47,549 nt of DNA from an uncultured Clostridia bacterium (GTDB lineage Bacteria > Bacillota > Clostridia > Christensenellales > Aristaeellaceae): contig CAMMYM010000004.1 in assembly GCA_946527725.1 (NCBI GenBank), forward strand, positions 1 to 47,549, read 5' to 3'. Of the stretch, positions 1,058-14,912 are shown in pieces. Under the pieces are notes generated by a model, which had not been told where the DNA came from, searched no databases, and saw only the letters and a list, made by a program, of their open reading frames with translations. A program made the translations under genes and the position numbers. Position 1 is the first letter of the stretch; the number at the start of each line of letters is the position of its first letter.

Positions 1058-1091
1058 TTGAGATGCGCACATGGCTGAAGGGGGCCTTCCG

Positions 1092-1451
1092 ATGAATATT
1101 TACGAATCGGCAGAAGATTACCTGGAGCAGATCCTGATGCTCCTGGAGCGAAAAGGTCATGCGCGCTCGGTGGATATTGCCGCGGGGCTGAATGTTTCCA
1201 AGCCCTCTGTCAGTGTGGCCATGAAAAAGCTGCGGGAAAACGGATATATCACCATGAGCAGCGACAGCATGATTTCCCTGACGGATAAGGGGTATGCGAT
1301 CGCCCGGAAAATCTATGACCGCCACCAGGCGCTGACGAAATACCTGGTTCAGCTCGGCGTGCCGGAAAACATCGCCAGGGAAGACGCCTGCAAAATTGAA
1401 CACGACCTTTCCGAGGAATCCTTCGCGGCCATCTGCAGCCAGATTGTATGA
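1092..1451 (+). CDS. DtxR/MntR-family metal-dependent repressor, iron-type metal site
   Basis: A 119-residue, two-domain DtxR-family repressor: winged helix-turn-helix (about 1-70; VSKPSVSVAMKKL is the recognition region) and metal-binding dimerisation domain (about 71-119). It lacks the SH3-like third domain, as is usual for MntR-size members. Metal-ligand positions by comparison with Bacillus MntR are D9, E12, H78, C100, E103 and H104. Manganese-type MntR has Glu where C100 stands; DtxR/IdeR iron repressors have Cys, so iron sensing is favoured. I chose ATG 1092 over the in-frame ATG at 1071 because AAGGGGG lies 7 bases upstream and the protein then starts in the usual way (MNIYESAEDYLEQI). 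It converges on the iron operon and has the shared operator at its own promoter. Confidence 0.85.
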   Translation: MNIYESAEDYLEQILMLLERKGHARSVDIAAGLNVSKPSVSVAMKKLRENGYITMSSDSMISLTDKGYAIARKIYDRHQALTKYLVQLGVPENIAREDACKIEHDLSEESFAAICSQIV

Positions 1452-1474: not shown

Positions 1475-1506
1475 AACGGCTGCTCCGCCTGGGGCAGCCG
1501 TTATTT
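1475..1506. terminator. Bidirectional intrinsic terminator between repressor and iron operon
   Basis: Perfect 9-bp stem AACGGCTGC / GCAGCCGTT (1475-1483 and 1494-1502), followed on the plus strand by ATTTTA and on the minus strand by TTTTCCC. It lies between two convergent genes and can serve both; the minus-strand gene stops at 1506, right beside it. Confidence 0.75.
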
Positions 1507-2183
1507 TATGCCAGTGGAAAGACCTCTCCCCTGTCCATCCTGAAAACCCGGTCCGCGTATTTTTCCGCGTCATTTTCGTGGGTCACGATGAATACCGCTT
1601 TGTTCTCCCCGTGTGCAAGATCGTGCAGGGCGGACAGGACCCTGTGCGTGTTTTCATCGTCCAGGTCGCCCGTAGGCTCGTCGGCAAAAAGGAGGTCCGG
1701 ATCCCGGATAACAGCCCGGATGATTGCCATGCGCCGCAGCTCGCCCCCGGACAGCTCCCTCGGAAACACCCCGGCCAGATGGGCGATTTCAAAATTCTCC
1801 ATCCACCGGCGGGCTTTCTCCGCAGGCGGGTCTTTTCCGTACAGCCTTGCCGGAAGCAGGATATTCTCTTCCGCCGTCAGGGTGTCGACCGCGCTCCTGG
1901 CCTGGGGAATCACGCCGATATGCTCGTTCCGGAAACGGGAAAGGGCCGCGTCGTCCAGGCTGTACAGGTCTGTCCGGTCCATCAGCACGCGGCCTTCCGT
2001 CGGCTGGAGAATCCCGCAAAGCATATTCAGCAAAGTGGTCTTCCCGGATCCGCTCCTTCCCGTCAGGACAGTGACTGTTCCGGGGCGGATCTCCATGCTC
2101 AGCGGGGAAACGGCATAGAAATAATTGGCACTCCCCGTATTGCGGAAAAAAGTTTTGCTGATGTTGTCGGCCTGAAGGAGCAT
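1506..2183 (-). CDS. ABC transporter ATP-binding protein, LolD/MacB type (second module of iron operon)
   Basis: A 225-residue cytosolic ATPase with Walker A GRSGSGKT (42-49), signature LSGGE, Walker B LLFADEP, D-loop GDLD and the switch histidine in THE. This is the subfamily that pairs with FtsX-fold permeases. The ATG at 2183 has AAAGGGGAAAG just upstream; an in-frame TTG at 2201 is less likely. It is the last gene of the nine-gene operon, 91 bases after the FtsX permease that ends at 2275, and its partner is almost certainly that permease. The signature is slightly divergent (GGELRR instead of GGEQQR). Transported substrate unknown; the operon context suggests iron or redox-linked export or release, not nutrient import by a classical importer. 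Confidence 0.88.
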   Translation of the reverse strand: MLLQADNISKTFFRNTGSANYFYAVSPLSMEIRPGTVTVLTGRSGSGKTTLLNMLCGILQPTEGRVLMDRTDLYSLDDAALSRFRNEHIGVIPQARSAVDTLTAEENILLPARLYGKDPPAEKARRWMENFEIAHLAGVFPRELSGGELRRMAIIRAVIRDPDLLFADEPTGDLDDENTHRVLSALHDLAHGENKAVFIVTHENDAEKYADRVFRMDRGEVFPLA

Positions 2184-2274
2184 ATTCTTTCCCCTTTTCA
2201 ATGCATCGTTTTCTTCCTGTTCCGCGGAACCCGCAGCCTGTTTTTTGCCCGATTTCTGCCTGCCGCCGGCCGCG

Positions 2275-3477
2275 TCAGGCCCCGTCCCTCAGTGCGGTTC
2301 CCGGGTTTACCCTGCTGAGGCGCCACGCGGCGAAAGCGCTGGTCAGGGCGGAAACCGCAACGGACAGCAGGATCGTACCCGCCGCCAGGCAAAGGATGGT
2401 ACTGAATCCCGGAATCAGGTACGGAAGCCCCAGGCTGCCCTCGATCAGGGCCGAAAAGGAGAAGACGCCGACGGCTGCGATACCGGTTCCCGCAATGCCT
2501 CCGATCAATCCGCATACCGCGGATTCGTACAGCGCCATCCGGCCGAGCATGTTCCTGGACGCCCCGAGAAGGCGCAGGACGGCAAATTCCCGGGAACGTT
2601 CCCTGACGATCAGGGTATAAGCGAGCAGGAGAATCACAAAGGCGAGAACCCAGATCACAACGATCATGGCCGTCACTGTCCGGCTGATGCCCGCAAGGCT
2701 GTCCGAAACGCCGGTGAGCATGGACCGGGTCCTGACCGCTGTGACCTTCCGGAGTTTCCCGGTCAGCGCAGTATTGACATCCCCGATGTCATATCCGTCA
2801 CGGACCTTGATATAAACCGCGGAAACGACCGAATCGTCCCCGCTGGAAATCCTGTGGCTGACGCCCTTGGCTTCCGCGGCTGCCAGCAGCGTATCCATGG
2901 TCTTCATGTTGCAGTAAACAGCCGTATCCAGCCCTGTTCCGGTCGGTTCCAGGCATGCCGTCACCTTGCAGCGCTGCTCGTAAATCCGGATGGTTTCCCC
3001 GATGCCGGCTCCCACCTTGCAGCCGACAGCTACTTCCATGTCTCCCAGTTCATTTTTCAGGCTGCGTGCAATCCATGGCTGGACCGTGAAGTCCCTGGAC
3101 GGGTCTATCCCGATGACCTGGATTTTGACGGAACAGCAATCCGCCTTCAGCGAGGCCAGGAACGTCTGGGGCGCGGCCTTTTCGACGCCGGGCACTTCCA
3201 GGGCTTTCTCCGCCACGGAAGCGTCCATATAGAACGCGCCGGTGGTTCCCTGCAGGAACATATTCCGGAAGCTGACCTTGCTCTCGGCTTCGGACGGCAC
3301 CAGGATAATATCCGCCCCCAGCCGTGCTTCCAGGCTCCGGAGGCCGGCGCGCAGGGATAAGGTAATCACCGATCCCCCGAAAACAGCCAGCGCCAGGAAC
3401 GCCGTCAGCAGCACCAGGGCGGTGGTTCTCCCCGGTTTCCTTGCCAGGTTTTTCACCGATAACGGAAGGATTTTCAT
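2275..3477 (-). CDS. FtsX-like ABC permease (second module of iron operon)
   Basis: A 400-residue permease of the MacB/LolC type: one N-terminal membrane helix (about 18-40), a large extracytoplasmic domain (about 45-270), then three helices (about 275-300, 325-350 and 365-390) in the FtsX domain with the conserved stretch FAVLRLLGAS. The extracytoplasmic domain contains several cysteines (ADCCSVK, RCKVTACLE), more than is usual for the family and perhaps relevant to metal or redox work. Start at 3477: the preceding gene stops at 3485, and GGGAGGG lies ahead of the ATG, so the two are translationally close. Partner ATPase is the gene at 1506-2183. It has no FMN-binding insert, unlike the permease at 4575-6035. 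Confidence 0.85.
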   Translation of the reverse strand: MKILPLSVKNLARKPGRTTALVLLTAFLALAVFGGSVITLSLRAGLRSLEARLGADIILVPSEAESKVSFRNMFLQGTTGAFYMDASVAEKALEVPGVEKAAPQTFLASLKADCCSVKIQVIGIDPSRDFTVQPWIARSLKNELGDMEVAVGCKVGAGIGETIRIYEQRCKVTACLEPTGTGLDTAVYCNMKTMDTLLAAAEAKGVSHRISSGDDSVVSAVYIKVRDGYDIGDVNTALTGKLRKVTAVRTRSMLTGVSDSLAGISRTVTAMIVVIWVLAFVILLLAYTLIVRERSREFAVLRLLGASRNMLGRMALYESAVCGLIGGIAGTGIAAVGVFSFSALIEGSLGLPYLIPGFSTILCLAAGTILLSVAVSALTSAFAAWRLSRVNPGTALRDGA

Positions 3478-3484
3478 GGCAGGC

Positions 3485-3886
3485 TCACGCCCTCCCCTTC
3501 TTTTCCCGGATGCACGCTGCAGCTCCGAACAGCGCGCACAGCGCGGCAGCTGCAAAAAGCACAGTCATGGCGGGCTGCATAACCGCCCGGCAGTGCATCG
3601 TGCTCATTTTGCACAGGCTGATCAGCGTTCCGGGCGTCAGGATGCCCAAGACGCAGGCCAGGAAACTGCCCAGGTACAGCCCGAGGCGGGCCATGCGGAA
3701 CAAAACCGCAAGCAGCGCGAGCATCGCGGCCAGCAGGCCGGTGCCCAGGAGGGAACGGCCGGCCCAGTGGCATGCGCCGACGGATCCGTCCTCATGGACG
3801 CACGGGCCGAGGAACGAGACGCTGCCGACGGAAGCAGCCAGGGCAAGGATAAAAAGAACGCATCCCGGAATAACCTGCTTTTTCAT
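3485..3886 (-). CDS. DUF4418 family membrane protein
   Basis: A 133-residue protein with four predicted membrane helices (about 8-27, 46-66, 70-90 and 104-124). It matches my memory of the DUF4418 family: a G-P-C motif and C-H-W motif after the first helix (C29 and C39-H40-W41) and L-C-x6-C-R after the third helix (C92 and C99-R100). These four cysteines and the histidine sit at membrane edges and could bind metal or form disulfides. ATG 3886 has AAGGA 7 bases upstream; a GTG at 3901 would put the site inside the preceding gene. The stop of the ATPase (3898) overlaps this leader. No biochemical function is established for DUF4418 to my knowledge; it often neighbours MacB-type ABC genes. Confidence 0.75.
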   Translation of the reverse strand: MKKQVIPGCVLFILALAASVGSVSFLGPCVHEDGSVGACHWAGRSLLGTGLLAAMLALLAVLFRMARLGLYLGSFLACVLGILTPGTLISLCKMSTMHCRAVMQPAMTVLFAAAALCALFGAAACIREKKGRA

Positions 3887-3897
3887 GCATGCATCCT

Positions 3898-4572
3898 TCA
3901 CTTTCCGAAATTCTCATTGATCACTTCCCGCGCAATGCGGCCGTGTTCCAGGACAATGGTCCTCTGCGCAGCCTCCGCGACTTCCGGGTCGTGCGTGACA
4001 ACGATCAGCGTCGTCCCCTCCTGATGCAGCCGAGCAAACAGGTCCAGGACAATATTCTCGTTCGCCTCGTCCAGGTTTCCGGTCGGCTCGTCCGCCAGGA
4101 TCAGTTCGGGATGGTTGATCAGTGCCCTCGCAACGCAGACGCGCTGCTGCTCGCCGCCGGAAAGCTGGCTGGGCAGGTGCCTGGCACGCTCCCTCAGCCC
4201 GACGCGCTCCAGTGCTTCCAGCGCTTCCTTCTCGTCCGGCATGGAGTGGTAATACTGGCTGACCATCACGTTCTCCACCGCTGTCAGGTAATTGACCATA
4301 TGGAACTGCTGGAAAATCAGGCCGATTTTGTCGCGGCGGATATCCGTCAGGGCTTTGCTGCTCTCCCTGCTGATATCCACCCCGTCCAGGAGCACTTCCC
4401 CTTTCGTCGGCTTGTCCATGCATCCGATAATATTCATCATCGTGCTTTTCCCGCTGCCGGAAGGGCCCATGATGGCAACCCATTCCCCCTGGTCCACATG
4501 CAGGCTTACGTTATCCAGCGCCTTCAGTTCCCCGTAAATCTTGGATATATTCTTCAGCTCAAGCAGGCTCAT
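3898..4572 (-). CDS. ABC transporter ATP-binding protein, LolD/MacB type (first module of iron operon)
   Basis: A 224-residue ATPase with Walker [11 protein letters not shown]-loop FQQFHMV, signature LSGGEQQR, Walker B LILADEP, D-loop GNLD and the switch H in THD. It should drive the two FtsX permeases encoded just upstream (4575-6035 and 6068-7363), in the same order as the permease-permease-ATPase triplet of the Campylobacter p19 region. The ATG at 4572 has a strong AAAGGAGAA that is embedded in the last codons of the permease (KGE stop), so the two genes are translationally coupled with two bases between them. Confidence 0.92.
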
Positions 4573-4574
4573 GT

Positions 4575-6035
4575 TTATTCTCCTTTCAGTACGATCGCAG
4601 GATCAACCGCCACGGCGCGTTTGATGGGAAGCAGGCAGCTCAGTGCCGCAATCACCATGGAAACAAGGATGGCTGCAGGCAGCAGCAGCGGCTGGAACGT
4701 AATGGATGCGCCGAACACGTTCACGCTGACCGCCTGGGCGAAAACAAAGCCGAGAATACCTCCCATCAGGCCGCCGAGCAGGCCCAGGAACAATCCCTCG
4801 CCGAGGAATTCAGCCCGGATGGAGCCGTCGGACGCGCCGAGCGCCTTGCGCAGGCCGATTTCCCTGCGGCGTTCCGAAACAACCGCCATCATGGTGGTCG
4901 ACACGCAGATCATCGTCAGCAGGAGAACGACCAGCGTCACCAGGAAAACCAGCGCGGTCAGCTTTTCGAGCACCGACGCTTCCGAGCGGGTAACCCGTTT
5001 GACCAGGCGGGCCCGGACCGCACCGTTTTCCTGCGAGATCGCCTCCGCGTATGCTTCCAGCTGTTCCGCGGGTGCGGAAACGCTCAGCTCCGCCACATCC
5101 AGCTGTTCCGATCCGGTGAGCGTTTTCATGTCCTCAAGGGATATGAACAGGTATTCTTCCTCTTCGCCGCCTGTTGTCAGGATCCCCGTGACCGTAAAGC
5201 TCAGCGTCTGCGGTTTGGCCGCCTTTTCCGCCTTCCGGGCGGAATTGACCGCCTGCACAACCGCTTCCGAGGTAACCGTCGCGCCGGAAAGCGCATCCAC
5301 GTCTTCCCCCAGAGTGAGCGGCAGCGTTTTTCCGATGAACTGGCCCAGGAAGCCTTCATCCTCCGCGGTGCGGCCGCCGTATTCCGGGGTCTGGGTTCCT
5401 GCGTCGATTTCCAGGGCCGCAACAGCGCCGTGATCGTCGAGCTTCACGCTGACATAGACGATGCCGCCGCCGAAGCCCTCTGCATTGCCGGCCAGCTCCG
5501 CCCCCGGAACCCGGCTGTCTTCGGGGCTGACGGCCTCCGTGCGGGCAGCCGGCTGGTACGTGAGCTCCATCGTGGATCCGGTTTTCAGGCCGATTGTTTC
5601 TGCTATTTTCTTTCCTGCCAGGACTTCCCTTGTATGCTCAGGGTAATTCCCTTCGATGCTGAAGTACGGGCTTGTTTTCGGAACCTGCGAAAAATCGGTT
5701 CCGGCAGCCGTAAATGACTGCTGGCGGGACGTCATATCCAGGCGGACGTAACGGTATGGCGTAGCCCCGATCACCTCGTCCGGCGGAATCTTCTCCAGGG
5801 CGTCCGCCAGCCCGTCCCTCTCCATCACGGTCCCCTCGGCGGGGAGGACCAGCATATTCGCGCCGTAGGAGCGGAACTGGGCGCCCATCTGCCGGGGAAC
5901 ATCGACGTAGATCGTCACCAGGCCGGCCAGTATCGTTGCGCCGATCCCGATGGAAAGCAGCGCAATCAGCATCCGCGACCGCCTGCGCAGGAGGGACGCG
6001 GTGATCATCCGAAGGAACATTCTTCTTCTCGTCAT
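4575..6035 (-). CDS. FtsX-like ABC permease with an inserted FMN-binding domain
   Basis: A 486-residue MacB-like permease: N-terminal helix (about 22-44), extracytoplasmic MacB-type domain (about 45-355), three C-terminal helices (about 360-385, 412-437 and 452-472) with the FtsX stretch GLRKALGAS. Residues about 190-266 are unlike other permeases and match the FMN-binding domain of RnfG/NqrC (GGIVYVSVKLD start, then DALSGATVTS at 247-256). D-x-x-S-G-A-T is the ApbE flavinylation motif, which predicts FMN esterified to T253. The domain sits in the extracytoplasmic loop, where flavinylation normally occurs. It lies between a plain FtsX permease and the shared ATPase in an FTR1/P19 iron operon. 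The inference is a permease that passes electrons to iron outside the membrane. No ApbE gene is in this window. Confidence 0.85.
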   Translation of the reverse strand: MTRRRMFLRMITASLLRRRSRMLIALLSIGIGATILAGLVTIYVDVPRQMGAQFRSYGANMLVLPAEGTVMERDGLADALEKIPPDEVIGATPYRYVRLDMTSRQQSFTAAGTDFSQVPKTSPYFSIEGNYPEHTREVLAGKKIAETIGLKTGSTMELTYQPAARTEAVSPEDSRVPGAELAGNAEGFGGGIVYVSVKLDDHGAVAALEIDAGTQTPEYGGRTAEDEGFLGQFIGKTLPLTLGEDVDALSGATVTSEAVVQAVNSARKAEKAAKPQTLSFTVTGILTTGGEEEEYLFISLEDMKTLTGSEQLDVAELSVSAPAEQLEAYAEAISQENGAVRARLVKRVTRSEASVLEKLTALVFLVTLVVLLLTMICVSTTMMAVVSERRREIGLRKALGASDGSIRAEFLGEGLFLGLLGGLMGGILGFVFAQAVSVNVFGASITFQPLLLPAAILVSMVIAALSCLLPIKRAVAVDPAIVLKGE

Positions 6036-6067: not shown

Positions 6068-7363
6068 TCAGTGGCCCCCGTGCAGGACCTCCGCCGGCCG
6101 CAGGCGCAGGACCATGCGGATGGCGGGAAGGCTGCCCGCAACCGTCACCAGCGCAATCAGCCCCGCCACGATCGGCGCGACCTTCGGATCCATCTGGATC
6201 GAGGAGCCGAAAACGCTGTGGCCGATCAGCTGCGCAAAACCGAAGCCCATCACGTAGCCTGCGGCAAATCCCAGCAGCGCGGTGATCAGAATTTCCGTCA
6301 TGACCACGCCGGTAATGGACCGGTCCCTGGCCCCGATGGCTTTCAGCAGGCCGATTTCCTTGCTGCGCTCCATTACGGAGGCCGTTACCAGGTTGGAAAT
6401 GCCCAGCGCGGAGCCGACAAGGCTCAGGGCAGTAATCAGAATCATCAGCAGCTTTGTTTTGTCCAGGATCGTTCCTTCGCTTTCAGCAACTTTCCGGACA
6501 GCCGAAGCGACCGATCCGGTAATCACTTCCTGGATCTGGTAGCAGATTGCGGAAACGTAAGCCGTGCAATACCATGTTTCATAATCCCGGCTGCTGAGCG
6601 CGGCCGGGTTCTTTGCCGCGCGGCGGGCAAGCTCGTTATCCGGGGTTGTCAGCGCGGACACTTCGATGGATGCCACCTCGTTTTCACGTCCTGTCAGTGC
6701 CTGTACCAGGTCCAGCGTCGCGTAAAGCTGTTCGTCCTCGTCCCCGCCGGCGTCGTAAATACCGGCAATCGTCACATCCTTTTCCCCCTGGTTTCCCTTC
6801 AGGCGGATGATGTCCCCGGCATGCCATCCATACTGCGCCGCCAGGGCCGCGCCTGCCATGATTTCGCCGGAAGCGTTCGCGTCCTTTTCATCCAGCCAGC
6901 GCCCTTCCGTGATGTCCCACCAGGAGCGCATGCCGACAATCCCGGCGTCGAGGCTTTCCCCTGTCGGCAGGTCCAGGTGATGGTTGAACCAGGTTCCCGT
7001 CAGGCTGGCCGCGGCGTTGTCCGCAACCTGGACCTGGGTGTCCAGGAAGGGGGTAAAATCCACGATGTTGAACGCCCAGAAAATCGTCTTCAGCTTTCCC
7101 AGTTCGTCCTCCCGCAGGTAGGCTGTGTTCAGCTCCGCTCCCCCGCCGACATCGTAGATATCGGAAAGCAGCGAGGAATCCTTTGGTTTGACAACAATAT
7201 TGGCCCCGTAATTCTTCAGTTCCTTGTTAACCTTCTCTTCCACGCCCAGCACGACGTTCAGCATGCCTGTGGCAAGCGAAGCGCCCAGGGCGATGGTCAG
7301 CGCGATCAGCAGCATTTTCCCCTTCTGGTGAAAGAGTACGCCCCGTATCATTCTGAACAGCAT
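6068..7363 (-). CDS. FtsX-like ABC permease (first module of iron operon)
   Basis: A 431-residue MacB-type permease: N-terminal helix (about 16-38), extracytoplasmic domain (about 40-305), then helices at about 310-332, 360-385 and 395-415 with the FtsX stretch IGLLKAIGARD. It ends with LRPAEVLHGGH, the usual C-terminus of this family. The loop contains many acidic and aromatic residues but no FMN motif. I set the start at ATG 7363, which has AAGGAGAA 7 bases upstream; the longer reading from 7402 would overlap the DUF2318 gene. The FMN-bearing permease follows after 32 bases, and the two likely form a heterodimer with the ATPase at 3898-4572. Confidence 0.88.
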   Translation of the reverse strand: MLFRMIRGVLFHQKGKMLLIALTIALGASLATGMLNVVLGVEEKVNKELKNYGANIVVKPKDSSLLSDIYDVGGGAELNTAYLREDELGKLKTIFWAFNIVDFTPFLDTQVQVADNAAASLTGTWFNHHLDLPTGESLDAGIVGMRSWWDITEGRWLDEKDANASGEIMAGAALAAQYGWHAGDIIRLKGNQGEKDVTIAGIYDAGGDEDEQLYATLDLVQALTGRENEVASIEVSALTTPDNELARRAAKNPAALSSRDYETWYCTAYVSAICYQIQEVITGSVASAVRKVAESEGTILDKTKLLMILITALSLVGSALGISNLVTASVMERSKEIGLLKAIGARDRSITGVVMTEILITALLGFAAGYVMGFGFAQLIGHSVFGSSIQMDPKVAPIVAGLIALVTVAGSLPAIRMVLRLRPAEVLHGGH

Positions 7364-7376
7364 TCTGACGTTCTCC

Positions 7377-8672
7377 TTATCTGAATTCTTTCTCGCCGGC
7401 AATCAGGTCTTCCAGCCTGAAAACAAGGTTGCCGTCCTTCACTTCGTAAGCCAGGGGGATAGGATTGCATCCGCCTTTGAATCCGATCGTATTGATGTTC
7501 ATAACGACGTCGCAGCGTTTGCATACAATCTGCCCGTTCCGTTCGTAGTAACCGGCATTCCCGCATACTTCACAGGCGTCCAGCCCCACGCCGTAGCTGG
7601 CTGAATTCGGCTTTTTCACCACAATCCAGCGCACCTCGATGTTCTTCTCCGTCCTGTACTCAAAACGGTGCAGGTGCCCGTCGTTCACCGCTTCGGAGGC
7701 TACCAGGATCACGCCGGCGTCCCGGTCCACCGTGTAGCTTTCCGGGGCTGACAGCTCCACCTGCCTGGTATCGTTTGTTTTGACCGTCGTCAGGATCAGG
7801 GTAACCAGCAGGAGGCAGGCCAGTGTCCCGGCGGCTGTCCTCCGCCATCGGCGGTTCCGCGCCTTCAGTTTGCGCAGCTGGGCAGGATTGTCGTATTTTT
7901 CCCGGAGGATTGTTCCCTGCCGCCAGAAAAACACAGCCAGGAGGACAGCCAGCCCGGCAGCCAGCCAGAGGAAGAGCATCGCATGGTTGGCGGTGAACAT
8001 CATCCAGTTCCCGATCCAGCCGTAAGCTTCGTCGCTGTATTTTACGGGCCACTTCAGCCACTTTGCCCGGTTGACCCAGGGCACAAAGAAGCGCCCGAAG
8101 CAATAGGCGGCAAAAATCCAGAGATTGGCCTGCAGGATCGCGGGGATCCATGCATACGGCTTTATTTCCAGCGCACAGCGCGAAAGCAGGCGCGAATAGA
8201 CGAAAAGCAGCACCAGCGCGCCCAGCCAGCCGGCCATGCGCACCAGGTAATAGGATGAGAGGTATCCCTGTCCCATGGTATTGAAGCTGAACGGGTACAG
8301 CATCACGCCGGGCAGCGCGTAAAAAACGAGGACAGCGGACAGCAGCGAACCGGCAATGCACAGCATTGTACTGCCGGCGTTTGATGCCCGGTTTTCTTTC
8401 CGGCCGAAGCAGGCGGCCAGGACGGTAAACAGGGCCGTCAGAGTGATCACAACCGCATAGATATAATGATTCCAGTGGCTGGATATAATCAGCTTCGTCG
8501 TATATTTCACAACGGCGAGGGCTGCAGAGCCAAGTACGCCTGCACAAAGCCCCGCGCTGTGGATCAGGCGTCCTTTACGCCCGGCGGTACGGGAAAGCAT
8601 CGTATGCATCAGCGCCGCATACGTAACTGCAAGGAAAAGATCCTGGACAACCATCCAAAGATACTTGAACAC
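7377..8672 (-). CDS. DUF2318 membrane protein with paired CxxC motifs
   Basis: A 431-residue protein with about seven or eight membrane helices in residues 5-297 and a C-terminal soluble domain (300-431). The C-terminal domain is the DUF2318 signature: C367-x-x-C370, C384-x-x-C387 and C402 within GGCNPIPL. The cysteines are suited to a metal or Fe-S site. The domain should lie outside the membrane. DUF2318 proteins accompany FTR1/P19 systems in other bacteria, where a redox or iron-relay role has been proposed; that role is inference. It starts at GTG 8672, with GGAGG 7 bases upstream. It sits between P19 and the FtsX permeases and would be a natural electron or metal partner for the FMN domain. 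Confidence 0.87.
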   Translation of the reverse strand: MFKYLWMVVQDLFLAVTYAALMHTMLSRTAGRKGRLIHSAGLCAGVLGSAALAVVKYTTKLIISSHWNHYIYAVVITLTALFTVLAACFGRKENRASNAGSTMLCIAGSLLSAVLVFYALPGVMLYPFSFNTMGQGYLSSYYLVRMAGWLGALVLLFVYSRLLSRCALEIKPYAWIPAILQANLWIFAAYCFGRFFVPWVNRAKWLKWPVKYSDEAYGWIGNWMMFTANHAMLFLWLAAGLAVLLAVFFWRQGTILREKYDNPAQLRKLKARNRRWRRTAAGTLACLLLVTLILTTVKTNDTRQVELSAPESYTVDRDAGVILVASEAVNDGHLHRFEYRTEKNIEVRWIVVKKPNSASYGVGLDACEVCGNAGYYERNGQIVCKRCDVVMNINTIGFKGGCNPIPLAYEVKDGNLVFRLEDLIAGEKEFR

Positions 8673-8806: not shown

Positions 8807-9361
8807 TTACCACTCTTTGACAAATTTCCAGCCGGTCCAGGTAGCGGTCAGCGGTTCAGTCCAGAAGCCGTCCTTCGCTTCGACGCCGGTTTCCGCATCC
8901 ACGTGGAGCAGGTAGCCGTTCTCAGCCGGGCTCTTGATATACAGGGTGATGGTGTATTCGCCCTCGGGCAGCGGGATGTTGTTTCCGTAGTGGGGACCGT
9001 CGGATGCGGCCATGGGCATCATGGAACCGGAATAAACTTCTTTGCCTTCCAGGTCCTTGATCACGAAATCGATGCTGAGGTAGGGTACCCAGCCATCCAC
9101 CGGGAAGCCGTAGGGATTCTCATTGGCGGTCAGGTCCACTTCAATATGCAGGTCAGAGCCTTCCTTGGGGGTCGCGTTCTCAGCGGGAGCCATATCCACC
9201 GGCTGGAAGTAAACCATGGCCATGGTCATGAAGCCGACTTCCTGTTCGCCTTCAACACCCAGTTCATATTCATCAAAACCAGCTTCCTCTTCCGCCAGGG
9301 AAACAGCGGAAACAGCAAAGAGCATCATTGCAGCAAGCAGCAGGGCAACCAACTTTTTCAT
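8807..9361 (-). CDS. P19/Tpd family extracytoplasmic iron-transport protein
   Basis: A 184-residue secreted protein: signal peptide 1-23 (MKK, hydrophobic core, cleavage after SLA), then a P19/Tpd immunoglobulin-like domain. Family hallmarks are YFQPVDM (51-57), the H72-x-E74 strand, WVPYLSI (91-97), SGSMMPMAASDGPHYGNNI (111-129) and H153. H72, M117, H124 and H153 fall where Campylobacter P19 binds copper, with E74 and D121 nearby. P19 is a dimeric copper-dependent iron-binding protein that works with FTR1. Cleavage is by signal peptidase I with no lipobox, so in a monoderm cell it would be released or held at the surface by partners. Start ATG 9361 has AAGGAGG upstream. It follows the FTR1 gene after 97 bases. 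Confidence 0.92.
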   Translation of the reverse strand: MKKLVALLLAAMMLFAVSAVSLAEEEAGFDEYELGVEGEQEVGFMTMAMVYFQPVDMAPAENATPKEGSDLHIEVDLTANENPYGFPVDGWVPYLSIDFVIKDLEGKEVYSGSMMPMAASDGPHYGNNIPLPEGEYTITLYIKSPAENGYLLHVDAETGVEAKDGFWTEPLTATWTGWKFVKEW

Positions 9362-9458: not shown

Positions 9459-11210
9459 TCAGGATTGGGCGGACTGCGCCTTCAGGGCGTTTATTTTCCC
9501 GCGGTAATGGGCAATCATGAATGTGACCAGCAGGATAACTGCCAGGATCAGCTGGGGTACAAGCGTTTCCAGCCACGGATAGATGCCGAAGATCTGGATT
9601 ACGTCGTTTTCCGGGATTCCCGGCACGCGAAGCGCAAGGTCAAAAGCGTTCCCTTCCGCCAGTTCCTTGATGCCGCTTCCGAGGAAGCTGACGCACATGA
9701 TTGCCATCAGGATGGACGTGGCGGTGAAGAAAACCTTGATCGGCAGCTTGACGGACAGTTTCGTAATCGCCAGGTATACGAAGACAAGCAGGACGCATCC
9801 CGCGCCGAAACCCGCCCAGACCATGCCGGGATTTCCTTCATTGAGCATCGGCTGGTAAAAGAGCACCACCTCGGCGCCTTCCCTGAATACGCTCAGGAAA
9901 GCCGTAAAAGCGAGAGCAAAAGCGCTCCCCTGTTCCACCGAAGACTGGACTTTCCCGTCGATAAAGCGGCTCCAGCTGGCAGCCTCGGCTTTGGAAATCA
10001 TCCAGTTGCTGACGTAGAAAAGCACGCAGACGGCAATCAGCGCGGTGATTCCTTCAATGATTTCCTGCGCAATCCCGGCTCCGGTGAATGCCTGTTTTGC
10101 CCAGGCCAGGACCGCGGCTGCCGCGAAGCTGGCCGCGATGCCGGCAACCGCCCCGATATAGACATTTTTCACACTGCGGCTGTTCCCGCTCTTGACCAGG
10201 TAAGCGATAATCGCTGCAATCACGAGGATCGCCTCCAGGCCTTCGCGGACGATAATGCCGAAAGCGCCCAGGAAGGTCAGCAGCTTCGGATCGCCCGGTT
10301 TTTCCTCCGCGGCTTCATCCGCCGCCGCAGCGTCCGCGCTTTTGCCCGCCTCCGCTTCCTTCGCCTGCGCATTTTTGGTGTCAATGGCTTTGGCGTACTT
10401 CAGGATATTGTTCTTTGCTTTATCCGTCGTGGTGCGGTATTTGTTTTTCTGGTATTTTTCGCTTCCTGACGCAACCAGGCTGCGGAGATCGGAAAACCCT
10501 TTCTCCATGGACTGCCTTTCCCGGATGGAAAGGTCGGTATAGATGGTGTGGTCCAGTCCGGATTCTTCATATACAGAATAATAGGCCGTGTTCAGGTTGT
10601 CCGCCGCGGCGTCAAAATCCTTGTCAAGGTAAGCCAGGTATGCCGTATCCAGCAGTTCCTTGGTCAGCGTCGCCGCTTCATACCAGTTCGCATACTTCGA
10701 CGCAGCGTTGGGATCGGCTGAATATTCCGCGTACGGGTCAGCCTGCACCCGTTCGCCGCGCAGGTAGAATTTGGTTTCGCTTTGCACGCCGCCCTGCATG
10801 GCCGCCAGCTTGTTCCCGTCTTCGCGGATCATCGCCTTGAGCTTGGCCAGCGCGCTGCGGACAGATACTTTTGTTTCTGCCGTTTCGTTTTCCTTTTTCA
10901 CAGCAGCCTTGCATGCGGAAAACTGCATTTCAACAGCGTTCTTGCGGTTCCCGCTGATATAGCTCATCGTCTGCCGTTCAAAGCCCGTCGTCTCATAAAC
11001 CCGGAAATATGCGTTGCTGACATTGTCGTAGGCAGCTGCGGAATCCCCGTCAAGGTATGATTCAAAAGCAGCGTCCAGGAATTTGTCGATCTTATCCGCC
11101 GCGTCGGCCCAGCGTGTGGAAACGGCTCCTTCGCCGAATCCGGCCTGCGGGAAAGCAACCAGGATCACGGCCAGGATACATATTACGCTCAGGAAAACCT
11201 TCTTCTGCAT
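9459..11210 (-). CDS. FTR1-family high-affinity iron permease with duplicated extracytoplasmic domain
   Basis: A 583-residue protein: signal or first helix (4-24), an extracytoplasmic region (25-305), then the FTR1 membrane domain with seven helices (about 310-570). Both iron-permeation motifs are present, R322-E-G-L-E326 and R443-E-G-A-E447. The extracytoplasmic region is an internal duplication: residues about 38-102 and 180-245 align (LDAAFESYLDGD with LDTAYLAYLDKD; NAYFRVYETTG with TAYYSVYEESG). A lysine/alanine-rich linker (about 258-305) joins it to the membrane part. The ATG at 11210 with GGAGGA upstream is preferred over a GTG at 11231. It is the first gene of the operon, with a DtxR-type operator at its promoter. 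FTR1 normally needs a partner that oxidises or presents iron; here P19 and the redox proteins follow. Confidence 0.93.
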   Translation of the reverse strand: MQKKVFLSVICILAVILVAFPQAGFGEGAVSTRWADAADKIDKFLDAAFESYLDGDSAAAYDNVSNAYFRVYETTGFERQTMSYISGNRKNAVEMQFSACKAAVKKENETAETKVSVRSALAKLKAMIREDGNKLAAMQGGVQSETKFYLRGERVQADPYAEYSADPNAASKYANWYEAATLTKELLDTAYLAYLDKDFDAAADNLNTAYYSVYEESGLDHTIYTDLSIRERQSMEKGFSDLRSLVASGSEKYQKNKYRTTTDKAKNNILKYAKAIDTKNAQAKEAEAGKSADAAAADEAAEEKPGDPKLLTFLGAFGIIVREGLEAILVIAAIIAYLVKSGNSRSVKNVYIGAVAGIAASFAAAAVLAWAKQAFTGAGIAQEIIEGITALIAVCVLFYVSNWMISKAEAASWSRFIDGKVQSSVEQGSAFALAFTAFLSVFREGAEVVLFYQPMLNEGNPGMVWAGFGAGCVLLVFVYLAITKLSVKLPIKVFFTATSILMAIMCVSFLGSGIKELAEGNAFDLALRVPGIPENDVIQIFGIYPWLETLVPQLILAVILLVTFMIAHYRGKINALKAQSAQS

Positions 11211-11240
11211 GCCCTTATTTCCTCCGTTCACGCATACATT

Positions 11241-11256
11241 GTTAGATGTTCCTAAC
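11241..11256 (-). promoter_or_regulatory. Putative DtxR-type operator of the FTR1 operon
   Basis: Perfect inverted repeat GTTAG-N6-CTAAC. It lies just downstream of the predicted start of transcription (near 11259), about +3 to +18, a position where a bound repressor would block initiation or clearance. It is the best-conserved of the four copies in this window. Confidence 0.65.
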
Positions 11257-11378: not shown

Positions 11379-11394
11379 GTTAGTTTGTGCTAAT
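11379..11394 (+). promoter_or_regulatory. Putative DtxR-type operator 1 of the AraC-ABC operon
   Basis: GTTAG-N6-CTAAT, one mismatch from the perfect repeat. It overlaps the extended -10 box TGCTAATAT at 11388-11396. The second copy lies 27 bases downstream. Confidence 0.55.
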
Positions 11395-11405: not shown

Positions 11406-11421
11406 GTTAGAGATTGCTAAT
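11406..11421 (+). promoter_or_regulatory. Putative DtxR-type operator 2 of the AraC-ABC operon
   Basis: GTTAG-N6-CTAAT, the same element again, at about +3 to +18 from the predicted transcription start. That is the same placement as the operators of the FTR1 operon and of the repressor gene. Confidence 0.55.
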
Positions 11422-11916: not shown

Positions 11917-12618
11917 ATGGCAATTGTGGAATTCAAAGATGTCTCCAGGGTTTACCGGAACGGCGACCATGAGCAGCGCGCACTGGATCATGTGAACCTG
12001 AGCCTGGAGGAAGGCAGGTTTATCGTCGTCCTGGGCCCAAGCGGCGCCGGGAAAAGCACGCTCCTCAACATGCTCGGCGGGCTCGACAGCCCTACGGAGG
12101 GCACGATTACCGTCAACGGAAAGGATATTTCAAAGCTGACACCGAACGAGCTTGCCGAATACCGTGCGGCCACCGTAGGCTTCGTTTTCCAGAGCTATAA
12201 CCTGATTCCGACCCTTACCGTCATTGAGAATGTCGCCCTTGTGAAAGAAATCGCGCCGAACCCCCTCAGCAGCCACGAAATGCTGAAAGCCGTCGGCCTG
12301 GAAGACCATATCCACCAGTTCCCGTCGGAGCTCTCCGGCGGTGAACAGCAGCGCGTTTCCATTGCCCGTGCGCTGGCAAAGAATCCGCATATCCTGCTGT
12401 GTGACGAACCGACCGGCGCGCTGGATTCCGAAACCGGCGTCATGGTGCTGAAGCTGCTGCTTTCCATGGCGCGGGATATGGGGAAGACCATCATTATCGT
12501 GACACATAACCAGAACATCGCAAAAATGGCCGATGTCGTGATCCGGGTCAAGAACGGAAGGATCAGGTCCTGTGAAGAGCAGGCTGCCCCCCTGTCTGTG
12601 GAAGAGGTGGACTGGTGA
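11917..12618 (+). CDS. ABC transporter ATP-binding protein, LolD/MacB type
   Basis: A 233-residue ATPase with Walker A GPSGAGKST, Q-loop FQSYNLI, signature LSGGEQQR, Walker B LLCDEP, D-loop GALD and the switch H in THN. It belongs with FtsX-type permeases, and its stop codon overlaps the start of one (TGATG at 12616-12620). ATG 11917 has AAAGGAG upstream; 60 bases separate it from the AraC gene. The AraC gene upstream and the shared operators point to metal-responsive control. This ATPase is a third one in the region, distinct from the two in the minus-strand iron operon. Confidence 0.92.
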   Translation: MAIVEFKDVSRVYRNGDHEQRALDHVNLSLEEGRFIVVLGPSGAGKSTLLNMLGGLDSPTEGTITVNGKDISKLTPNELAEYRAATVGFVFQSYNLIPTLTVIENVALVKEIAPNPLSSHEMLKAVGLEDHIHQFPSELSGGEQQRVSIARALAKNPHILLCDEPTGALDSETGVMVLKLLLSMARDMGKTIIIVTHNQNIAKMADVVIRVKNGRIRSCEEQAAPLSVEEVDW

Positions 12619-14912
12619 TGCTGCTGAGAAAACTGTTCAGGACGCTGTGGAAATACAAGGCGCAGTTCATTTCCATGGTCATCATGGTCGCGCTGGGAAT
12701 CGGCGTTTTCCTGGGATTCAACGTGGAATGGTATTCCCTGGAAATCAACACCAAAGAGGTTTACGACGCGACCGGGTTCGCGGATTACCGGATTTACAGC
12801 GACAAAGGCTTCAGCCCAGAGGACCTGGATGCGGTGAAGGGAATCGCCGGCGTGGAAGATGCAACCCGTTTCCTGTCCCTGGATGTCTCGGTAAAGGACA
12901 GTTCCGATACGCTGGCGCTGACCGTCAGCGAGAATATGGCCGTATCCGGTGTGCTGGTCACTGCGGGCGAACCATACAGCGCAGAAGATCCGGACGGTTT
13001 CTGGCTGTCGGATTCCTACGCGAAAGCCAACGGAATCTCCCTGGGGGATCCGCTGACGCTGTCTTATCAGGCGATCACGGTAAGCGGTACGGTCAAAGGG
13101 CTGGTCAAGTCCGGCGAATACCTGATCTGCCTGCCGGATACGAACCAGATGATGCCGGATTATGATACTTACGGCTTCGTCTATATTTCCCCCGCCATGC
13201 TGGACCGTTCCGTTCCGGCACTGTACAAAATGATGGTCGGGTCCCTGTACCATCAGATCAACGTGAAATCCTCCCTGGACAAGCCGGCTTTTGTTGCGGC
13301 GGCGGACAAGGCCCTCGGAAGCACGCGCCTGGTCCTTTCGAAGGGCGAAACCGTTTCCTGGGCTGAAGCGCAGGGCGAGGTAAATGAAGGAAAAACCATG
13401 GCATCCATCCTGCCGGTGCTGTTCCTGGCCATTGCGATCCTGACCATGGTGACCACCATGCACCGCATCTGTGCCAGCGAAAAGACGCAGATCGGCACCT
13501 TCAAGGCACTGGGATTCAAGGACCGGCGGATCCTGGTCCATTATTCCGCCTATGCGCTGATCATCGGCCTGCTGGGCGCGCTCCTTGGGATTGCTGTAGG
13601 TTACGGACTCGGATGGTTCATTATGAACCCGGACGGAGCGATGGCGACCTATATCGATGTACCCTCCTGGAAGCTGTACGCCCCTGCTTTTACATGGGTT
13701 GTGATTGCAGGCATCATCGCTTTCCTGACGCTGATCGGCTTCCTGTCTGTGCGGAAGATGCTGCAGGGTACGGCAGCCGATGCGCTGCGTCCTTATTCCC
13801 CGAAGCGCATGAAGCATTTGCGGTTTGAAGAGACAAAACGGTTTAAGCGGCTCGGTTTCGGGACCAAATGGAACCTGCGCGACTGTGTCCGGCATAAATC
13901 CCGGAGCCTGATGACGCTCTTCGGGATTATCGGCTGCATGGTCCTGCTTGTCGGCGGCATCGGCATGAAGGATACGATGGATGCGTTCCTGGATGTGTTT
14001 TTTGAGAAGGCGATCAACTATGCCACCCGGGTGAACCTGGATGAGAAGAACATGACCCTGGAGGAAGGGAAAGCGCTGGCTTCCTCCCTTGACGGGGACT
14101 GGGCGGCCTCCCGGGCTGTCCAGATCGGCGACAAAGGGTACACCCTGGAGATTTATGCCATTACCCATGACAAAGTCCGGTTCGCGGATACGGAGATGAA
14201 GATCATCCCGCTGTCGGATGAAGGTGCGTATATCTGCTCCAGGATCGCAAGGGATTTCCGCCTGAAAGCCGGGGATGAGCTGTCCTTTACCCCCTATGAC
14301 GGCAATGAATCCTATACGGTTCCCGTGGCCGGTGTGCTGGATTCCATGACGGAAGGGATTTTCATGACGGATGCCTTTGCGGACAGGATCGGCCTTACCT
14401 ATAAGGTATCTTCCGTGTTCACGGACGCGGCGGAAATCCCGGACGATCCGCACATCCTGAACAGGCAGAGCAAGCAGTCGATCATGGATTCCTTTGACAT
14501 ATTCATGGACCTGATGAATAAGATGATCTGGCTGCTGGTGATCGCCGCGGTCATCCTGGGCATCGTGGTCCTGTACAACCTGGGGATCATGAGCTATACG
14601 GAGCGTTACCGGGAAATGGCCACCCTGAAGGTCGTCGGTTTCAGGGATTCCAAAATCGGCAGGCTCCTGATCAGCCAGAACCTGTGGCTGACCGTGCTCG
14701 GGATCCTGATCGGCATCCCGGCCGGCGTCGGCATCCTCCGGTACCTGCTGGACGCGCTGGCTTCCGAGTACGAACTGAAACTGGTGCTCGGCCTGCCCAC
14801 CTGGCTGGTCAGCATCCTGCTGACCTTCGGCGTTTCCCTCCTCGTGGGGCTGATGGTAGCCCGCAAAAACCGGCATATCGACATGGTGGCGGCGCTCAAG
14901 ACATCTGAATGA
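12618..14912 (+). CDS. Large FtsX-like ABC permease (two FtsX domains)
   Basis: A 764-residue permease with the duplicated layout of LolC/BceB-like exporters: an N-terminal helix (about 13-33), an extracytoplasmic domain, three helices with the first FtsX domain (about 260-380; QIGTFKALGFKDRR), a fifth helix (about 430-450), a second extracytoplasmic domain (about 455-620), and three final helices with the second FtsX domain (EMATLKVVGFRDSKI). No FMN motif is present. I start it at ATG 12618 (GTG 12615 is possible), overlapping the stop of the ATPase. Substrate unknown. In Bacillota such pairs often export peptides or lipids, but the iron-type operators suggest involvement in metal stress or siderophore/haem handling; this is inference. 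Confidence 0.88.
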   Translation: MLLRKLFRTLWKYKAQFISMVIMVALGIGVFLGFNVEWYSLEINTKEVYDATGFADYRIYSDKGFSPEDLDAVKGIAGVEDATRFLSLDVSVKDSSDTLALTVSENMAVSGVLVTAGEPYSAEDPDGFWLSDSYAKANGISLGDPLTLSYQAITVSGTVKGLVKSGEYLICLPDTNQMMPDYDTYGFVYISPAMLDRSVPALYKMMVGSLYHQINVKSSLDKPAFVAAADKALGSTRLVLSKGETVSWAEAQGEVNEGKTMASILPVLFLAIAILTMVTTMHRICASEKTQIGTFKALGFKDRRILVHYSAYALIIGLLGALLGIAVGYGLGWFIMNPDGAMATYIDVPSWKLYAPAFTWVVIAGIIAFLTLIGFLSVRKMLQGTAADALRPYSPKRMKHLRFEETKRFKRLGFGTKWNLRDCVRHKSRSLMTLFGIIGCMVLLVGGIGMKDTMDAFLDVFFEKAINYATRVNLDEKNMTLEEGKALASSLDGDWAASRAVQIGDKGYTLEIYAITHDKVRFADTEMKIIPLSDEGAYICSRIARDFRLKAGDELSFTPYDGNESYTVPVAGVLDSMTEGIFMTDAFADRIGLTYKVSSVFTDAAEIPDDPHILNRQSKQSIMDSFDIFMDLMNKMIWLLVIAAVILGIVVLYNLGIMSYTERYREMATLKVVGFRDSKIGRLLISQNLWLTVLGILIGIPAGVGILRYLLDALASEYELKLVLGLPTWLVSILLTFGVSLLVGLMVARKNRHIDMVAALKTSE

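Follow-up and report, generated by a model that had tools for sequence, protein, structure and literature searches.

The 47,549-nucleotide stretch analysed here (the window; contig CAMMYM010000004.1 of an uncultured Clostridia bacterium) carries what looks like a variant of the Fet (P19/FTR1) iron-uptake system, in which an extracytoplasmic flavin protein is built into the ATP-binding cassette (ABC) permease FetC. We consider it probable that this FetC binds its flavin covalently and serves as an electron donor to iron at P19/FTR1. The observations behind this reading are the anatomy of the genes, the distribution of the fusion, its phylogeny and its co-occurrence with ApbE. The fused permease has the following features:

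4575–6035, minus strand: FetC, an FtsX/MacB-like permease of 486 residues with a flavin insert (Pfam, AlphaFold model).
About 5199–5555, minus strand: the insert, about residues 161–279, absent from unfused FetCs (alignment with unfused FetCs).
5238–5468, minus strand: the flavin mononucleotide (FMN)-binding domain FMN_bind, residues 190–266 (Pfam E 1.6e-10; NqrC fold match over residues 163–266).
5277–5297, minus strand: the ApbE motif DALSGAT, with T253 (codon 5277–5279) as the predicted FMN site.

The Pfam search placed FMN_bind (PF04205) on residues 190–266 with 41.9 bits against a cut-off of 22, MacB_PCD on residues 23–160 (E 1.5e-7) and FtsX on residues 365–476 (E 2.4e-22). This agreed with an earlier note, made from the sequence alone, which had read the same residues as a flavin domain in the extracytoplasmic loop of an FtsX/MacB-like permease; the loop position is also predicted from the Pfam matches and the AlphaFold model. 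FMN_bind was found in 53 of the 54 aligned relatives, so the match is not a chance one. Alignment with unfused FetCs showed that the insert is larger than the Pfam match. Where unfused FetCs have a short turn, the insert follows about residue 160, and the permease sequence resumes at FTVTGIL, at about residue 280. In the AlphaFold model, FetC has the fold and topology of a type VII (MacB/LolE/FtsX) ABC permease, of LolE/MacB-like kind, and bears an NqrC-like domain; this single flavin unit lies within the predicted moving part. These results support a flavinylation-competent FMN domain in a predicted extracytoplasmic loop. The insert resembles RnfG/NqrC and multi-flavinylated proteins in domain type, ApbE motif and fold, but it sits in an ABC permease and falls below the RnfG family cut-offs (TIGR01947, 27.4 against 102 bits; NF045876, 44 against 205). 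FetC is also under the cut-offs of MacB proper (50.5 against 966 bits) and lolCE (65.4 against 362 bits). Unlike MacB, LolCDE, FtsEX and YtrEF, it bears a flavin domain; among the type VII matches listed, no title names one. An assembly artefact was considered, as the assembly of the window is 57% complete, and was rejected because the same fusion recurs in many independent loci and in single-contig genomes (G023, G968).

The segment D247-A-L-S-G-A-T253 conforms to the ApbE consensus D-x-x-[S/T]-G-A-[S/T] of a published review (PMC12052999), as the earlier note had proposed. We collected 98 fused loci, 92 of which are distinct by their last 200 residues. The pattern D..[STA]GAT is conserved in 91 of the 92 distinct loci and the strict motif in 95 of the 98, and the loci with the motif span down to 62% identity. 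The gene for ApbE, for which a search had been suggested, was found in the genome of the window and in all 13 genomes of its genus with a fused FetC. From the motif, the fold and the presence of ApbE, covalent FMN is predicted on T253. Among 24 genomes with an unfused cluster, ApbE was present in 15/15 with a separate flavin lipoprotein gene vs 3/9 without one (Fisher p 6e-4, kinship not corrected). The ApbE of the genome of the window is encoded by a 523-residue open reading frame (L001, 1279–2850), which continues for about 170 residues after the ApbE domain.

The permease belongs to a gene run with the composition and order of a Fet cluster:

9459–11231, minus strand: FetM, an FTR1 permease with a long N-terminal extension (Pfam PF03239, E 3.1e-26).
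8807–9361, minus strand: FetP, the P19 iron-binding protein (Pfam PF10634, E 1.7e-46).
7377–8672, minus strand: FetA, an FtrD-like (DUF2318) membrane protein with two CxxC motifs (Pfam E 1e-29; conserved cysteines).
6068–7402, minus strand: FetB, an FtsX/MacB-like permease (Pfam), whose listed start is TTG, so that the true start may be further in.
3898–4572, minus strand: FetD, an ABC ATPase (Pfam E 4.6e-36).
3485–3901, minus strand: a DUF4418 protein (Pfam E 3.7e-15).

The FTR1 and P19 genes adjoin, and the two FtsX permeases FetB and FetC and the ATPase FetD stand in Fet order. Pfam thus bore out the FTR1, P19 and DUF2318 genes that had been recognised in this run before. FetA has the cysteine pattern CxxC-x(13)-CxxC-x(14,15)-C described in PMC6083913 (C367, C370, C384, C387 and C402), and the five cysteines are invariant in the alignment, for which 28 of 107 FetAs were used. 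A separate seventh gene for a thioredoxin or FMN-binding protein is absent; the DUF4418 gene follows FetD instead. We call the cluster a Fet variant because the first six genes are present and the flavin part lies inside FetC. FetB carries the motif WYCT[AS]Y (C279 in the window) in 120/120 FetBs, 112 of them distinct; by its position the cysteine would be extracytoplasmic, beside the CxxC motifs of FetA.

Compared by published descriptions (PMC6083913, PMC10783030), the cluster resembles FetMP-FetABCDEF of Campylobacter jejuni, which has FTR1, P19, the DUF2318 membrane protein, two permeases and the ATPase in the same order. The C. jejuni system has the thioredoxins FetE and FetF, whereas in the window the flavin domain lies inside FetC and a Pfam scan of ten proteins from the operon and its flanks showed no thioredoxin. 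It also resembles sifABCDE of Bifidobacterium breve and other Gram-positive P19 clusters, with an eight-helix membrane protein, two FtsX permeases, an ATPase and an extracytoplasmic FMN-binding protein. Unlike the domain in the window, SifE of B. breve (Lanigan 2017, PMC5449479) is a separate gene product; the likeness concerns the gene set. The earlier idea that a flavin protein takes the place of the thioredoxin is in keeping with these reports, but it is not new. Thioredoxins or FMN proteins are described in the same gene place in P19 clusters, with an exchange of the proteobacterial thioredoxin for an FMN-binding protein between phyla (Liu 2018, PMC6083913), and 260 P19 clusters with an FMN-binding gene have been reported (Meheust 2021, PMC8238504). 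Bifidobacterium is not named in the main text of the latter. We found no published account of a flavin domain within FetC in the titles, opening lines of abstracts and passages searched, and the 260 clusters may include fused ones. The screen in PMC8238504 needed a signal peptide or lipid site on a target gene, and fused clusters may therefore have been missed. The claim that the combination was unpublished thus holds, as far as this search goes, for the fusion into FetC; the cluster, the thioredoxin/FMN exchange and SifE were already known.

The distribution of the fusion was determined in several samples. A scan with fused FetC sequences, of which the best 80 of 140 loci were retained, gave 80/80 fused loci; such a scan favours fused forms, since it was queried with them. 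These 80 were labelled as Clostridia assemblies of several families, many from rumen and gut. Although the stretches were often incomplete, they contained FetB in at least 78 cases, FetA and FetD each in at least 73, P19 in at least 66 and FTR1 in at least 57. Alignment A2 comprised the window and 53 of the 80 loci, and alignment A3 the window and 47 of the 66 loci with a usable FetA. The FetC frame was shorter than 480 residues in 4 of the 98 fused loci, three of them cut at a contig end (L166, L165, L216) and one split in two frames (L215). In a first sample of the genus, 13 of 25 genomes had a fused FetC. Of 300 genomes sampled from the family, 113 matched the FetC model (E <= 1e-60); they belong to 14 of 50 genera. 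Judged by span and by an open frame of at least 450 residues, 109 of them look fused, only some having been fetched. The remaining four are unfused, and in each of these a gene for a flavin lipoprotein comes directly after FetD.

In the phylum and class samples, only unfused forms were seen outside the family. In the phylum sample, an FtrD-like match was found in 65 of 398 genomes, 16 of them as frames of 400 residues or more over the cut-off. These included 14 Fet clusters besides the window, all with an unfused FetC of 372–393 residues and five with a flavin protein adjoining FetD. The sixteenth frame (G274) belongs to no Fet cluster: FTR1 and P19 are absent, and it showed no flavin domain at the thresholds used. 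Two other families of the class yielded six clusters, all of them unfused and each with a lipoprotein beside or near FetD. No fusion was found outside the family among the 14 FetCs of the phylum sample or in the class sample, unrelated permeases not being part of the search. The lipoprotein gene was found in 0/71 distinct fused clusters whose sequence includes FetD and 1.5 kb downstream of it vs 15/24 unfused ones, and in 10/10 unfused clusters of the nearest families, with a search model built from four of the lipoproteins that it then counted.

To describe the origin of the insert, a tree of the FetC core was built from 29 fused FetCs of at least 480 residues and all 24 unfused ones. The 29 fused rows form one clade (100/100); its sister, at 100/99, is the family's set of four unfused FetCs, whose clusters keep a separate flavin lipoprotein gene. 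A first tree of the flavin domains (12 inserted, 12 lipoprotein and 28 multi-flavin domains) set the cluster lipoproteins apart from the inserted and multi-flavin domains at 100/99. A second tree, with one inserted and one multi-flavin row fewer and 12 of 30 RnfG loci added, separated them at 100/98 from a group of inserted, RnfG and multi-flavin domains. The mean identity of the inserted domain was 22.7% to the lipoproteins and 35.4% to the multi-flavin domains. Trees and identities argue against the possibility that the cluster's own lipoprotein was moved into FetC. Both flavin trees have about 100 columns and carry a long-branch warning; the clade of inserted domains reached only 88/50 in the tree with RnfG rows, and the placement of the source goes no finer than the RnfG-type group. 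Because the fused FetCs form a single clade, the lipoprotein counts are 0/71 vs 10/10 and the flavin domains separate in the tree, it is likely that an RnfG-type domain was inserted once and the old lipoprotein gene was lost, two different flavin modules having filled one place.

In the proposed mechanism, ApbE would attach FMN to T253 outside the cell membrane. The flavin may receive electrons from FetA with its five invariant cysteines, from the FetB thiol, or from Rnf or another membrane system. It would then deliver them either to ferric iron or to another component, for instance the CxxC domain of FetA, and P19-bound iron would be handed to FTR1. Published proposals for the FMN proteins of these clusters are reductive (PMC6083913, PMC8238504), and FetBCD has been predicted as a source of reducing power (Chan 2023, PMC10783030). 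MacB-type proteins use ATP for extracytoplasmic movement with no substrate crossing the membrane (PMC5985334). A free flavin lipoprotein has been exchanged for a domain of another subfamily fixed in FetC, an argument for the extracytoplasmic part of FetBC as the place where the flavin acts. The earlier note had suggested that the ABC module couples ATP use to electron delivery. An idea that we regard as unlikely though worth stating is that FetBCD delivers electrons at the expense of ATP: ATP binding would move the extracytoplasmic domain and its flavin from an electron donor to iron on P19/FTR1 and back. Electron transfer would in this way be gated by a type VII ABC protein, much as it is gated by ATP in the nitrogenase reductase. 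A flavin fixed in a moving domain fits such ATP-gated delivery. The same single unit in the moving part could instead be a sensor or a brake on the ABC protein: FetBCD would be controlled by whether the flavin is oxidised or reduced, and the flavin would not carry electrons to iron. Roles as sensors and conformational machines are known for type VII ABC proteins (PMC5985334). We hold this to be quite improbable, as the version in the relatives is a free lipoprotein and the gene in that place codes for a thioredoxin or an FMN protein (PMC6083913), which electron carriers fit better.

Several points weigh against a reductive flavoprotein in FetC. The flavin is a prediction, and the motif is absent in L164 (DALAGAT, with A for S/T) and in L136, identical to L217, where GAT is gone. 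The lost GAT would suit a domain that has drifted from a flavin domain, binds no covalent flavin and now serves just for structure or binding; the conservation of the motif and the presence of ApbE in every genus genome with the fusion make this very unlikely. ApbE is also present in 10/12 genomes of the genus without FetC, so its presence there does not discriminate, and it can also serve the RnfG-like and long multi-flavin proteins found in the genus. In 9 of the 24 unfused clusters no flavin gene lies in the vicinity, so a flavin gene within the cluster is not a requirement of the system. The assignment of sif as a Fet cluster is our inference from gene order. In C. jejuni, FetE and FetF may be oxidases, which could reverse the direction of the electrons (PMC10783030). 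The flavin would then be the electron acceptor, oxidising Fe(II) or the thiols of FetA or FetB, and FTR1 would move iron as Fe(III). The conserved cysteines of both proteins and the description of FetE as more like a thiol oxidase (PMC10783030) are consistent with this. The transposon mutants of B. breve in sif and apbE, which share an iron phenotype and are sensitive to ferrous-iron chelators only (PMC5449479), point the same way. We nevertheless judge an oxidising flavin to be rather improbable, since the proposals in print are reductive and no electron acceptor for it was seen in the cluster. PMC5449479 was the only work found that links apbE and sif; its authors place apbE with iron-sulphur assembly, whereas we read its product as the probable flavin transferase of SifE and count the shared phenotype as independent support for the link with flavin.

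Members of the genus encode large proteins in which several flavin domains are combined (L018, L019, L024, L025, L026), with open frames of up to 1153 residues. In several genomes such genes lie some kilobases from an RnfG-like gene.

Further elements of the window concern regulation and the flanks of the operon:

11241–11256: a palindrome, GTTAG-N6-CTAAC, before the FTR1 gene, a probable operator (pattern search).
1042–1057: a copy with one mismatch before the regulator gene (pattern search).
11379–11394 and 11406–11421: copies with one mismatch further upstream (pattern search).
1071–1451, plus strand: an MntR/DtxR-like regulator, tail to tail with the operon (Pfam Fe_dep_repress).
1506–2201, minus strand: an additional ABC ATPase of the gene run (Pfam).
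2275–3480, minus strand: an additional FtsX permease of the gene run (Pfam).

The four palindrome copies compare with 0.31 expected in the window. With at most one mismatch and a variable spacer, the palindrome was found in 57 of 65 distinct upstream regions of fused clusters (20 shuffles: mean 0.25, maximum 1) and in 5 of 22 unfused ones. Of the 98 fused loci, 34 include a relative of the regulator. The box, which we take to be like DtxR-family operators, is probably the operator of a metal-dependent repressor. DUF4418 occurs on 75 of the 98 fused loci and on five unfused loci of one other family (L174–L178); the window adds the further permease and ATPase (1506–3901). Another ABC pair on the plus strand, an ATPase and a 765-residue FtsX permease (11917–14912), adjoins the Fet operon. 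On three other stretches (L089, L093, L220), DUF2318 proteins stand beside FtsX-type permeases and an ATPase, with FTR1 and P19 not found on the stretch, which may represent a sister system without an iron permease.

The fusion bears on the role of the ABC transporter in P19-type iron uptake, whose function and substrate are described as unclear (Chan 2023, PMC10783030). The shared phenotype of the apbE and sif mutants in B. breve (PMC5449479) is a genetic handle on the same link. A single protein allows flavinylation, ATP use and iron reduction to be tested together. As a natural joining of the flavin domain and FetC, it hints at where the flavin acts: electrons may be delivered on the transporter itself.
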